A stretch of 36,815 bases of DNA from Candidatus Synechococcus spongiarum SP3 (GTDB lineage: Bacteria; Cyanobacteriota; Cyanobacteriia; PCC-6307; Cyanobiaceae): contig JXQG01000015.1 of NCBI GenBank assembly GCA_001007665.1, forward strand, positions 1 to 36,815, written 5' to 3'. Position numbers and translations under genes: made by a program. The first letter of the stretch is position 1, and each line of letters opens with the position of its first letter. The notes under the pieces were generated by a model. That model did no database searches and was not told where the DNA came from. It was given only the letters and a program-made list of their open reading frames with translations. Positions 19,718 to 24,494 of this stretch are shown here, piece by piece.

Positions 19718-20956
19718 TCACCATCCATCACCCGGCGCAAGGCGGAGAACTCGGCCGTCCCGCTCATCGTCGGTCAAGGCATAGACAACACCGTCAGGCC
19801 CTGCGGCCACATCGCGGATGCGTTGCCCCTCATCGGCAATGAGTCGCTCCTCGTGGATCACCGACTCGCCATCCAGCTCCAGACGAAGAATGGCACGGGC
19901 CCTGAGGCCAGACACCAGCAGGTTGCCCTGCCAGTCTGGAAATGTCCTGGAGCCGTAGAAGGCGATGCCGCCAGGCGCAATGGCCGGGGTCCATGTGGCG
20001 ACGGGATCCTCCAGCCCCGGCGCCGACCTGAACCCACGCCCTACCGGACGGCCGGAATACTCCACCCCGTGGGACACCAGGGGCCAACCGTAATTCCCCC
20101 CTGGCTTGACCACGTTCAGTTCATCACCACCCCGTGGGCCGTGTTCACTGATCCACAGCTTGCCCGTCTCCGGGTGGATTGCCGCGCCCTGGACATTGCG
20201 GTGTCCATGGGACCAGACTTCCGGCAGGGCGTCGTCGCGGCCAATGAACGGGTTGTCGCCGGGCGCTGTGCCGTCGGGTTGCAGCCGCACCACCTTGCCC
20301 AGGTGGGAGCGGAGATCCTGGGCCTGTTGCCGCCATGGGTCCCGGAACCGTTCCCCAAGCGTCACAAACATGGTTCCATCCCTGGCGAAGACCACCCGGG
20401 CGCCAAAGTGCAGACGACCTGGATAGCGGGGTAGCTGCCGAAAGACAACGGTGACCCCTTTGAGAGTTGTTCCATCGGCAGAGAGCCGCGCCCGGGCCAC
20501 CGCAGTGGAGTTGGCGCCGTCGGAGGCTGGTTCGCTGTAGGCCAGCCAGAGCAGGCGGTTGCTGGCAAATGCCGGATCCACGGTCACATCCAGCAGCCCC
20601 CCCTGCCCCACATCCGCCACTGGGGGAACACCACCCAGCGGCGCCGACAGATTGCCCTCCTGATCCAGGATCCTGAGCCGGCCGGGTTTTTCCGTGAGGA
20701 TCATGGCGCCGTTGGGGAGCATGTCCATTCCCCATGGCTGCGCAAGACCTCGGGCCACCACACTGAGAAGTACAGGACCCTTCTCGGTTGTCACGGTGCG
20801 GGTCTGGGCGCTGGAGAGTTCCGGCATGAACGGCAGGAGGACGGACGCCACCAGGGTCAGAACGATTCTTCCCAAGGGGTCCACCACAGTTTTCACGACG
20901 GCCTTGACGGCAAGCCTCAAATGTAGGGTTACCAGAAGGCTTGTCGTTGACACCAT
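19718..20956 (-). CDS. PQQ-dependent aldose sugar dehydrogenase
   Basis: A 412-residue secreted beta-propeller of the soluble glucose/aldose dehydrogenase type (YliI/GDH-B). These oxidise sugars with pyrroloquinoline quinone in the periplasm. The N-terminus has a signal-like hydrophobic segment (LGRIVLTLVASVLLPFMPE) followed by SSAQTR. Core motifs are GLAQPWGMDMLPNGAMILTE, GGLLDVTVDPAFASNRLLWL, SHGHRNVQGAAIHP, WISEHGPRGGDELNVVKPGG and NYGWPLVSHG, which carry the PQQ- and calcium-binding sites. I take ATG 20956; a GTG at 20977 is in frame. That ATG overlaps the start codon of the divergent metallophosphoesterase within one CCATGG. Confidence 0.9.
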   Translation of the reverse strand: MVSTTSLLVTLHLRLAVKAVVKTVVDPLGRIVLTLVASVLLPFMPELSSAQTRTVTTEKGPVLLSVVARGLAQPWGMDMLPNGAMILTEKPGRLRILDQEGNLSAPLGGVPPVADVGQGGLLDVTVDPAFASNRLLWLAYSEPASDGANSTAVARARLSADGTTLKGVTVVFRQLPRYPGRLHFGARVVFARDGTMFVTLGERFRDPWRQQAQDLRSHLGKVVRLQPDGTAPGDNPFIGRDDALPEVWSHGHRNVQGAAIHPETGKLWISEHGPRGGDELNVVKPGGNYGWPLVSHGVEYSGRPVGRGFRSAPGLEDPVATWTPAIAPGGIAFYGSRTFPDWQGNLLVSGLRARAILRLELDGESVIHEERLIADEGQRIRDVAAGPDGVVYALTDDERDGRVLRLAPGDGW

Positions 20957-21761
20957 GGCGATGGCGCTCCCCACCACCCATGGGGAACAATCTCCAGCCA
21001 GCTCAGCGCCCCACCGCGCCCTGTTTCTCGGCGACGTTCACCTGGGCACCAGGCGGACAGAGGCCCGGCGTCTTCTCCAGCAGCTCAAGGCCCATCCCAG
21101 CGAGCGGCTGGTGCTGGTGGGGGACATCCTCGACTGCACCGCATGGCGAAAGCGCGGTGCGGTGTTCAGCCCCGGTGAGGTGGAGCTGTTGCTTTGGCTC
21201 GTGGCCGCCGCTGCCGAGCGCCCAGTGATCTGGATTCTGGGGAACCACGAACATCCCCTTCGGAAAGCCATGGGTCCAGATGTCATGGAGACCATCGCGA
21301 ACGACGCGCCATGGCTCCGGATCGGCCGCCGCTACATTCACCAGACGAAAGACGGTCAGCGGCTGGCGGTCATCCATGGGGACTGCCTGGGTCACGGCTC
21401 TGGCCGCTGGCAGCGCCTGGATTATTGGGGGTATCAGGTCCTGGTTGAGCTGGAACGCTGGAGCCGCCGCCTGGGGTTGCCGAGCCCCACCTTGGCGGTG
21501 CAACAGGGCCGGGGAGGGCAGCAGGTGATTGCCGCCTTCCACCGGGATGCGGCCGCCTGGGCGCAGCGCCATGGCTTCGATGGGGTGATCTGTGGCCACA
21601 TTCACAGTGCCTGCCTGGAGGATCACGCACCCGTGCGGGTGCTGAACACCGGCTGCTGGACCCATCCACCCGGTACCTTCCTTGTGGAAACAGCCGATGG
21701 CCGTTGGCAACTCCGGGACGGCCATGGCCACCTCCTGACCCAGTTGGGGGAGGAAAGTTGA
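20955..21761 (+). CDS. Calcineurin-like metallophosphoesterase (LpxH-like, COG2908)
   Basis: A 268-residue metallophosphoesterase with all the signature residues. These are the D-x-H motif FLGDVHLGTRR (Asp27, His29), LVGDILDCTAW, the GNHE motif ILGNHEHPLRK, VIHGDCLGHGS, and the H-x-H motif GVICGHIHSACLED. Members are UDP-2,3-diacylglucosamine diphosphatases (lipid A synthesis) or related phosphoesterases of unknown substrate, and the sequence does not separate them. The start is ATG 20955. A second ATG at 20961 is also possible and would avoid overlap with the divergent gene. Decayed IS sequence follows directly downstream. Confidence 0.88.
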   Translation: MAMALPTTHGEQSPASSAPHRALFLGDVHLGTRRTEARRLLQQLKAHPSERLVLVGDILDCTAWRKRGAVFSPGEVELLLWLVAAAAERPVIWILGNHEHPLRKAMGPDVMETIANDAPWLRIGRRYIHQTKDGQRLAVIHGDCLGHGSGRWQRLDYWGYQVLVELERWSRRLGLPSPTLAVQQGRGGQQVIAAFHRDAAAWAQRHGFDGVICGHIHSACLEDHAPVRVLNTGCWTHPPGTFLVETADGRWQLRDGHGHLLTQLGEES

Positions 21762-21764
21762 ATG

Positions 21765-22000
21765 AACTGAGGGTCAGGACTCACCACCAGAAGACGAGGG
21801 TGGTCCCAGGAGAACGGCAGAGCGGAAGGGATGGACACAGCGGTCGCAGCGTGTGGCCATACTGCGCCAGTCCTTTGGCATAGCCCTTCTACTGATCTTG
21901 ACGATGGGTGACCATATCAGCAAGTCTCAGGCCGTCATAGACCACAAAACGCACGGCTTTGCGGACGATGGAGGATCTGAATTTGCTCAGATCCCTGGCA
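21765..22000 (-). pseudogene. IS5-family transposase C-terminal remnant
   Basis: On the minus strand the translation includes PKDWRSMATRCDRCVHPFRS and AVLLG, then shifts frame to TTLVFWW with a stop at about 21768. IS5 (IS427-like) transposases end with G-R-L-K-D-W-R-R-x-A-T-R-Y-D-R-C followed by a short hydrophobic helix, F-W-L and stop. Two stops lie upstream in the same frame, so only debris of the catalytic region remains. The outer limit near 22000 is uncertain. This may be the missing C-terminal kind of the remnant found at 11905-12222. Confidence 0.6.
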
Positions 22001-22373
22001 AACGGAATTGCCCCAAGGTTGATGGTATTCCAATGGTTGCCCACATCCTTCCGGATCAGGTGGTCCGCAACAAGCTTCTCGCCCCCTGCCGGTTATCTGG
22101 CAAGGGTTGTTGGGTCAAGTCAAAATAGTTTGCATAGCCCAGCAACGATAAAACATCATCGCCAGATAGAAATTGTGCAGCCGGCCCGCTTTCCCATGAA
22201 TAAGGGTGCAGCTCGGCCCACAGGAGGCGGCGCTACTTGGGATGACCTGACAGGGGAATCGTTGCGCTGCCGGCCCGCACATATGCCGTGCGCTCAACCT
22301 CCACCGGGCTGGTGGGCGGCGATTTTTCGGCGGGCTGCTCAACGGGTACCCGTCACAGGCGAACGAAAACGTT
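22001..22373. other. Gene-free stretch in the degraded island
   Basis: No family was recognised on either strand. Frames up to about 97 residues exist, for example 22115-22408 minus, but they have Cys/Pro-rich composition, no ribosome-binding site and no motif. It is probably decayed sequence between the IS5 remnant and the mosaic open frame. Confidence 0.4.
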
Positions 22374-22558
22374 GAGAAGCGGAAAAACAAGATGTAGAAG
22401 CTATACAATATGACATCAGTAGGGTAAGTTTACTTGCTCAGGTCCCACAGCTTGTGGATTCTGGATCTCCTCTTCGTCAAACACTCCAAAACGAGTTGAA
22501 TCGGATTCTTTCTACCTACGACGATTCATATACGGTCAGGCTTGATGTAAGGCCATAA
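22374..22558 (+). pseudogene. Orphan open frame fragment, no start codon
   Basis: Between a TGA and the TAA at 22556 the frame encodes about 60 residues of coding-like, moderately charged sequence. It includes EAIQYDISRVSLLAQVPQLV, LRQTLQNELNRILS and TYDDSYTVRLDVRP. There is no ATG, GTG start or ribosome-binding site, and the stretch is more AT-rich than its surroundings. It is in frame with the next fragment across the TAA. The family is not recognised. It is best read as the tail of a gene whose front was lost. Confidence 0.35.
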
Positions 22559-22567
22559 GGGAGGAGT

Positions 22568-22843
22568 GTGACCGTCAGCATATCCAGCGATCACCCTGAC
22601 GCCTTTGCCATCACCCCTGACAACTGGAACCAACCCCAGGAAGTCCAGGTCAGGCTCGCCTTCACTATCCAGAACTACATTAGCGGAACGGCATCGGGCA
22701 TCATCGGTGCGGTCCAGATGGCCTGTGGCGGAGGAGCGGAAAGCCTGATTATCTATTTCGGTGCCGTCCTTGCGATGATGATCGCCATGGCCGTGCTCTC
22801 CTTGGCAGCCATTTTGTTTGTCCTGCGGGTCGAGGCAAGGTGA
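22568..22843 (+). pseudogene. Chimeric fragment: surface-repeat piece fused to MFS C-terminus
   Basis: An open frame from GTG 22568 (91 residues). Its first 30 residues, VTVSISSDHPDAFAITPDNW then NQPQEVQV, resemble the repeat of large secreted or adhesin-like proteins: S-S-D-N-x-D-x-x-V-S-P, then N-W-x-x-P-Q-x-V-x-V. Residues from about 33 on, GTASGIIGAVQMACGGGAES plus two hydrophobic helices ending in LFVLRVEAR, resemble the last helices of a Bcr/CflA-type multidrug MFS exporter (motif G-T-A-S-x-L-x-G). The two halves belong to unrelated families. I read this as an accidental junction of two gene remnants. Confidence 0.5.
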
Positions 22844-22981
22844 CGCCGCGTCGAGGACGCGGCTCACTCAATGCGCGCCGCAACATCCACCAGAACCTGC
22901 CGCTGCTGGGGGCGAATCGTCTCTACCGCCTGTTGCACCCGTCTTGGAACAATCTCTGCTCTCATACAGTCAATCCCTATT

Positions 22982-23533
22982 TCAGCCCTGACCGTCCGGC
23001 GTTTCGGGGAAGGACAAACGACGATACTCGGCATAGGTCTTCGGTTTCGGTCCCGGCTGCGCCTCTAACCAGTTCCAGGCTTTGAGCGCGTCTTTCTCAG
23101 GGATACCGGCATTGGCTGGATCGGCTCTGAAATCTGTCTTCTTGCGCCGCCAGTCATTGAGCCAGTACCATTGGCCCGACTTTCGACCGAATCCCGGTGC
23201 CTCGGCACGTACGAGTTCCAGCAGGAATGACTTAGTTTTCTTGTCATCGACATAGTTGGCGACGACCATGTCGGACGTTAGCTTGTCGCACGCCTGGCCG
23301 GCTTTACGTGGCATGACCGGTTTGCAGTCGGGCACCTTCCCCGTCCGTAGGAATTGCCGAATCAAATTCTCCAGTTCGATCTTGCGAAAATTGCCGACAG
23401 GGATTCCAACCTCGCGGGCAAAGGCCTTCAGGTCGGCGGCGTAAAAGTATCCGTTGTCGAATTCCTCGATGCTCATCTCTCGATGAAGCGTGCTCGTTCG
23501 GATCGTCTTAGTACTCATTGTTGCAAGTATCAT
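22982..23533 (-). CDS. SAP-domain protein of unknown role
   Basis: A 183-residue soluble protein. Residues about 30-64 (FYAADLKAFAREVGIPVGNF then KIELENLIRQFLRTG) fit a SAP motif, a two-helix nucleic-acid-binding fold. The rest carries PRKAGQACDKLTSDMVVANY, FLLELVRAEAPGF and KSGQWYWLNDWRRKKTD, with a C-terminal KTYAEYRRLSF, and I recognise no further catalytic site. ATG 23533 has a good ribosome-binding site, AAGGTGA at 23543-23549, nine bases upstream. ATG 23518 is also in frame. The gene looks intact although both flanks are decayed mobile sequence, which suggests acquisition with a mobile element. A bacterial DNA-binding or defence-related role is possible but not shown. Confidence 0.7.
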   Translation of the reverse strand: MILATMSTKTIRTSTLHREMSIEEFDNGYFYAADLKAFAREVGIPVGNFRKIELENLIRQFLRTGKVPDCKPVMPRKAGQACDKLTSDMVVANYVDDKKTKSFLLELVRAEAPGFGRKSGQWYWLNDWRRKKTDFRADPANAGIPEKDALKAWNWLEAQPGPKPKTYAEYRRLSFPETPDGQG

Positions 23534-23589
23534 TGAAGCTCATCACCTTAGTAAGGCTGGCGCCGACCTTCTCCGCCGCCGCGACCAGG

Positions 23590-23757: not shown

Positions 23758-23914
23758 GGCTTTTCTTCGTCCTCCACTAGTTCCTTACCACACCACCAAT
23801 CAGCCCCGAGACGCAGGCCCAGGCAGCAACCACAACTGCGCCAGGCCGTACGGGTCCCCTGGCTGTCTGAACTACGGGTGCTTGACCCTGCTAAGAATGG
23901 GCAAAACGAGGTCG

Positions 23915-24140
23915 CAGCACCATGGGCTGGTTCTACCGATGGAAGCCGCGACAACTGCAAACCATTGGAGACCATGACCACGGCACTACAAGGGAAGGTC
24001 TTCACTGATCAAGGCTATCTTCCCCGGTCGCTGCTGGAGCGCCTCCGGGCTTCCACTGGGTCACCAGCATTCGCCGCAACATGAAGAACGACCGGACGCC
24101 CAGGCTGGACAACGTGCTGTTGCGCAAACGATTCATCTAT
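23915..24140 (+). pseudogene. IS982-family transposase remnant
   Basis: Plus-strand pieces in two frames give [27 protein letters not shown] then LPRSLLERL. After a frameshift near 24050 they give [20 protein letters not shown] and VLLRKRF. IS982 transposases carry G-W-F-Y-G-F-K, then G-K-x-F-x-D-K-G-Y-x-x-x-x-L, then x-K-N-M-K-N, then D-x-x-L-L-R-K-R at corresponding spacing. The frame shift, the stop after RKRFIYG and the lost ends mark it as dead. It preserves the middle part; the remnant at the right edge of the window preserves the end of the same family. Confidence 0.7.
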
Positions 24141-24376
24141 GGGTAAGCCCCTGTGCAACACGCGGCTGGCCCACGTGCCCCAAAGACAAGGCCGCTTCAC
24201 CGTTGATGGGATGAATGGCTCTGTGACCGGGGTGTTCGGTCTCGCCGATCTGGCCTCGCTCCTCCATCAAGACGGCTCCGTCACGCTGCCAGACCAACGA
24301 CCCACATCCATCTCCAGCCCCACCCTTGCCCAAAAGCCCAAAGGGGTCGCACACGGGCTTGATCAACCGCTATCCA
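24141..24376. other. Interval before tRNA-Phe, no supported gene
   Basis: No intact gene. On the minus strand a 77-residue frame ends with [20 protein letters not shown] and [11 protein letters not shown], which loosely resembles the IS982 C-terminal pattern (E-H-S-R-H-R-S then A-x-P-R-V). It would be inverted relative to the adjoining remnant. The likeness is too weak to call. Confidence 0.3.
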
Positions 24377-24449
24377 TGCCAGGTCCCAGATTTGAACTGG
24401 GGACACGGCGATTTTCAGTCGCCTGCTCTACCAACTGAGCTAACCCGGC
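24377..24449 (-). tRNA. tRNA-Phe (GAA)
   Basis: A 73-nt cloverleaf on the minus strand. The acceptor stem GCCGGGT pairs with ACCTGGC (one G-U), with discriminator A. The D arm is GCTC-AGTTGGTAGA-GCAG. The anticodon stem is GGCGA/TCGCC, enclosing loop CTGAAAA with anticodon GAA. The T arm is CCCAG-TTCAAAT-CTGGG. The 3' CCA is not encoded; the gene ends with the discriminator base, followed by TGGATAG. It lies between the degraded IS island and comF, where tRNA genes often mark integration borders, but no duplicated tRNA end was found here. Confidence 0.95.
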
Positions 24450-24494
24450 AGACTTTGACCTGATGCTGGTCAGGCCAAAACCTTGCCCTCAATC

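Follow-up and report, generated by a model that had tools for sequence, protein, structure and literature searches.

The gene at positions 22982-23533 of the window, which is the whole stretch of 36,815 nucleotides of Candidatus Synechococcus spongiarum SP3 analysed here (contig JXQG01000015.1), was found to be shortened in comparison with its relatives, and we consider that it probably represents an accessory gene that was gained by lateral transfer and is now in an early stage of decay. A full-length version of about 207 residues, with an N-terminal SAP domain, a DUF6434-like helical middle part and a conserved helical C-terminus, would have come into the cyanobacterial lineage with Rhodospirillales-type bacteria as its source or as an intermediary, and would have landed in a variable region beside a tRNA-Phe gene. 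The start codon and 38 codons, where the middle part joins the C-terminal part, would then have been lost, leaving a frame that is open but damaged. A stop-free frame can thus still be a damaged gene, which is revealed only by comparison, and the gene would be one more example of an accessory gene moved laterally between phyla.

The open frame and its protein family

An earlier note on this DNA described a 183-residue open frame with a SAP domain. The frame is real and is located on the minus strand (the note gave no strand), and the domain was confirmed as SAP_new25 (PF18953). The frame and its parts were as follows:

22982-23533, minus strand: 183-codon open frame, a shortened member of the SAP_new25/DUF6434-like family
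23321-23467, minus strand: SAP_new25 domain, residues 23-71 (Pfam)
23138-23284, minus strand: DUF6434-like middle part, from its beginning up to the conserved KSGQWYWLNDWRRKK motif, with the end missing (alignment; the profile comparison is collinear with a DUF6434 protein)
22985-23137, minus strand: remaining C-terminal part (alignment)

The SAP_new25 match of the window protein had an E value of 4.6e-12 and 45.8 bits, above the curated cut-off of 26.3; the Pfam entry describes a domain only and is silent on function. In the same Pfam search, the window protein had no match to the classical SAP domain (PF02037) or to DUF6434 (PF20026) at E values up to 1, and the full-length protein of a close relative, L002, also fell short of DUF6434. 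The NCBIfam scan of the window protein gave nothing. A weak match to a PHROGs profile of 1440 positions for a minor head protein (E 0.0088) was taken as chance, because the window protein had no matches in phage records or viral contigs. A match to one phage record was obtained with a distant Sinorhizobium DUF6434 protein.

The family alignment matched a SAP_new25-DUF6434 protein, WP_018210696.1 of Sinorhizobium medicae (26% identity by tblastn), over nearly its whole length with an hhalign probability of 99.6%, and the middle part of the family is therefore best read as a diverged DUF6434 domain, of which the window gene lacks the end. No good match to a solved structure was found: the best E value was 0.27 in the PDB by sequence and 0.95 with Foldseek against the PDB. 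The best Z score of VIA-align 2 (3.7 over 57 residues) was uninformative either way. The AlphaFold2 model of the L002 protein was almost wholly helical, with a mean pLDDT of 88.7 and a pTM of 0.69. We infer that the full-length protein most likely holds DNA or RNA by its SAP domain, and that the tryptophan-rich middle part and the C-terminal helices serve as a protein core or in partner binding. Literature searches by the Pfam identifiers of SAP_new25 and DUF6434 found no paper.

The scan of genome contigs yielded 29 related loci (L002-L030). Many of these were metagenome-assembled genomes (MAGs) of Rhodospirillales, Rhodothermales, Chloroflexi, Acidobacteria and Gemmatimonadetes, and further loci were found in Pseudovibrio, Hahella, Bartonella, Orbaceae and actinobacteria. 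Several of the MAG names (RHO1, COS1 and others) resemble, as we take it, those of sponge samples. Sponge MAGs are the subject of PMC8163846. Alignments, models, conservation counts and the tree were made from 27 of the 29 loci, omitting the incomplete L029 and L030; L031 and L032 were left out as the same gene as L008.

Lesions and selection

The earlier note called the gene intact, with a full frame and a clear ribosome-binding site. Comparison with the relatives contradicts the first two descriptions and qualifies the third, and the following lesions and signals were found:

23137-23138, minus strand: junction of a 38-codon (114-bp) in-frame deletion; residues 121-158 of L002 are absent
23495-23497, minus strand: ACG at the start-codon place of the seven closest relatives; the preceding string is AAGACG, in L002 GGGAGG
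23045-23050, minus strand: 6-bp (two-codon) insertion, found in no other row of the alignment
23542-23549, minus strand: AAGGTGAT, a string like a ribosome-binding site, before a non-ancestral ATG at 23531-23533

The missing 38-residue stretch follows KSGQWYWLNDWRR, the most conserved motif of the family, and belongs to the segment between the NDWRR and TDF motifs, where the window gene has a clean in-frame junction. The stretch was whole in 28 of the 29 related loci; the remaining one, L029, ends inside it. Of the alignment columns with at least 90% conservation among the other rows, 13 were deleted and 3 substituted in the window gene. The other 27 rows contained between 0 and 9 substitutions, with a median of 2, and L017 was the one row among them that also lacked some of these columns (3). 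The start methionine was conserved in the seven closest relatives (L002-L007 and L027) and is replaced by threonine (ACG) in the window. The purine-rich AAGGTGAT is indeed present, 8 bases before an ATG, but it precedes a start that is not ancestral; L002 has TTG at that position, and translation from the upstream ATG would add 12 residues ahead of the lost start. In the L002 model, the deletion takes out the helix 129-141 and part of the helix 153-163, and the window protein, modelled by AlphaFold2 with the same 28 rows, reached a pLDDT of 74.2 and a pTM of 0.49.

The deleted interval, the losses in conserved columns, the ACG start with its altered Shine-Dalgarno (SD) string and the drop in the AlphaFold2 model together argue for decay, and the window gene has presumably lost its function. 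With respect to two features by which pseudogenes are recognized, loss of conserved parts and of start signals was found in the window gene, whereas a frame broken by a stop codon or frameshift was not, both indels being multiples of three. The open frame and the in-frame indels count against decay, as does the upstream ATG with its SD-like string, which could drive translation. They are also what would be expected of the main rival, a functional shortened variant in which the SAP domain, still with a good score, would bind nucleic acid and the upstream ATG would serve as the start of translation, the in-frame indels having been either tolerated or favoured. We regard this rival as unlikely: 13 highly conserved columns are gone together with the ancestral start and its SD string, the confidence of the model is lower, and the same deletion was found in none of the other members (29 loci).

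The deletion is known from one assembly, of 117 contigs, which also weighs against decay and would fit an assembly artefact in which the organism still has the 114 bp and only the assembly lacks them. Such an artefact is quite improbable, since the start-codon change, the 6-bp insertion and the changes at conserved sites fall outside the deletion, and no collapsible repeat was seen at the junction when compared by eye with L002 and L003.

Two of the related loci look damaged themselves. In L017:5890-6531, an in-frame stop lies close to the conserved end and the similarity continues beyond it, and L029:5781-6239 has lost its C-terminal part.

The rate of nonsynonymous to synonymous change, proposed earlier as a check, was far from 1. 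The pairwise dN/dS was 0.188 between the window gene and L002, 0.184 between the window gene and L003, and 0.178 between L002 and L003; the family is under purifying selection, with a dN/dS of about 0.19. With L003 as the outgroup, the window branch carried 21 synonymous and 18 nonsynonymous changes, against 13 and 7 on the sister branch of L002. The two branches did not differ significantly (Fisher p 0.58), and the window branch was below neutral expectation (p 2.8e-5), which speaks against decay and in favour of the shortened variant. What the dN/dS reveals is selection that acted on the family and over most of the window branch; it does not extend to the shortened form of today. As the family and most of the window branch have been under selection, the lesions are probably recent in a gene that we still read as decaying. 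In simulated neutral change, the chance that the frame stayed open was 0.68 with 10 substitutions and 0.24 with 39, and the open frame alone is therefore weak evidence of function. The earlier suggestion that survival of the frame points to selection is not borne out, given the loss of the conserved start and of the 38 codons.

Genomic surroundings and probable arrival

Features of the surroundings were as follows:

22975-23580, minus strand: DNA block 85-86% similar to L002, with the similarity stopping at both edges (blastn, two pieces split at the deletion)
24376-24450, minus strand: tRNA-Phe (gaa); synteny with the genus continues on its right side but not on its left
23887-24142, plus strand: multi-copy DDE transposase remnant, presumably IS982
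22528-22665, plus strand: fragment that matches a part of a leucine-rich-repeat/autotransporter frame in genome G007 at 69% similarity
21872-22315, minus strand: broken remnant of a Schlafen/AlbA_2 and RecG-C-terminal-like gene

The closest relatives of the window gene were the Rhodospirillales MAG gene L002 (JAPPFK010000151.1), with 85% protein identity, and the Rhodospirillaceae MAG gene L003 (WTGH01000057.1), with 82%. Unlike the window gene, both are full length (207 residues) and have ATG at the conserved start. The tree placed the window gene with these two (support 95/92). The gene was found once in its own genome (2.13 Mb) and in 2 of 99 searched genomes around it, the window genome and G008. 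The G008 copy, with 55% identity over its match, grouped with two Rhodothermota/Bacteroidota rows (85/83), apart from the window gene, and vertical inheritance within the genus was rejected on this ground. In the order of the Hahella genome, matches were found in 2 of 293 genomes, one of them weak.

The tRNA-Phe gene is about 840 bp from the window gene. To its right, five genomes of the genus (L087-L091) have stretches similar to the window, whereas to its left the similarity extended at most 10 bases in any of them. Contamination of the contig by an alphaproteobacterium was rejected, since the right side is syntenic with these five genomes. The piece at 21872-22315 recurs about 21.7 kb from tRNA-Phe on the same G008 contig, and as both flanks are found there on one contig, the region at tRNA-Phe is a variable region. 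The GC content of the window gene was 0.553 against 0.604-0.668 in five neighbouring genes.

Lateral transfer is likely from sequence comparison, because the nearest relatives are Rhodospirillales MAGs and the other copy in the genus groups elsewhere; the direction of transfer, into the cyanobacterium, is the presumed one. Acquisition is further indicated by the restriction of the L002 similarity to 22975-23580, the presence in so few genomes, the GC content, and the tRNA-Phe with its synteny break, and the window gene, which belongs to a known domain family, was probably acquired laterally. The decayed mobile island and recent arrival proposed in the earlier note fit the alphaproteobacterial kin, the synteny break and the multi-copy transposase remnant. 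Its description of the surroundings stood for the transposase remnants, but the fragments of MFS and peptidoglycan-binding genes were unconfirmed by Pfam: among 12 flanking fragments scanned, 11 had no match and one had two sub-threshold matches (E 0.015 and 0.12).

G008 has the Schlafen/AlbA_2 and RecG-C-terminal-like gene as an open frame of 518 codons (L061:852-2405). A metallophosphatase gene at 20952-21761 was whole in the window and in G004, and only pieces of it were found in G008 and G009. A stretch of about 70 bp at 21800-21875 has many repeats in the genus and overlaps a DDE transposase frame in L078, which we take to be IS5-like.

Neighbourhoods of the full-length relatives

The comparison of homologous neighbourhoods, also proposed earlier, gave no gene group common to more than three loci, other than the family gene itself and overlapping wrong-frame picks; most of the 29 loci are without a common partner. 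The neighbour scans covered 85 of 108 frames; 13 neighbours in L008-L011 and L024, most of which were scanned separately, and 10 short or doubtful frames were dropped.

A role as a phage-defence accessory, considered in the earlier note, is not supported and appears highly improbable. It is favoured by two Rhodothermales loci, L007 and L027. The family gene adjoins type III restriction-modification genes there, and each locus also contains a frame weakly matching STAND/NACHT-type ATPases, which in L027 has a partial SAP_new25 match as well. Against it, the PADLOC scan of the window protein matched 0 families at E values up to 1, none of its relatives was found in phage records or viral contigs, and among the 85 neighbouring frames the defence models matched by more than one frame were those of restriction-modification, with two frames each (among the first 25 of 54 families). 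In L027:4017-11834 and L007:2-4041, the STAND/NACHT-like frame is located upstream of the family gene and the type III restriction-modification genes downstream.

The window gene itself is of little import, and the interesting lead lies outside the window, in the relatives located in natural-product clusters (Pseudovibrio, Hahella and a distant Sinorhizobium relative). In Pseudovibrio (L011), the family gene has an acyltransferase gene on one side and a DeoC-type aldolase gene on the other; the surrounding cluster contains an HpaB hydroxylase, MatE, 3-dehydroquinate synthase II, a thioesterase and AMP-binding enzymes. When nine proteins of this cluster were compared with the surroundings of the family gene elsewhere, L024 had homologues of four of them, L009 of two and L010 of one, so that 4 of the 29 loci contain such cluster genes, with L009 and L010 closely related. 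The only other matches were AMP-binding genes near L003 and L008, the latter of the acetyl-CoA-synthetase type. The distant DUF6434 relative of Sinorhizobium is carried on a plasmid, where it is part of an NRPS cluster that includes HpaB and 3-dehydroquinate synthase II; a Niallia relative was not in such a cluster.

From L011, L024 of Hahella, L009/L010 and the plasmid relative, it could be supposed that the full-length SAP-DUF6434-like family serves 3-dehydroquinate synthase II natural-product clusters as a portable helper or for self-protection. Such a protein would shield or mark DNA against the product, and its gene would move by itself between symbionts to confer immunity; the window copy would be one that has lost its use. 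This proposal is quite improbable as it stands. If the association held, it would provide the first testable role for a domain family without one. Literature searches found no paper joining SAP domain, biosynthetic gene cluster, self-resistance and DNA, and none on 3-amino-4-hydroxybenzo compounds with Pseudovibrio. We take the 3-dehydroquinate synthase II clusters to be of the 3,4-AHBA type.

Natural-product clusters, each with 3-dehydroquinate synthase II and with the family gene or a distant DUF6434 relative inside it, were found to span L011:160-12572, L024:1-7925 and L034:10319-39752. In L009 and L010, two closely related loci from actinobacterial MAGs, the full-length SAP gene is accompanied by no more than fragments of such a cluster.
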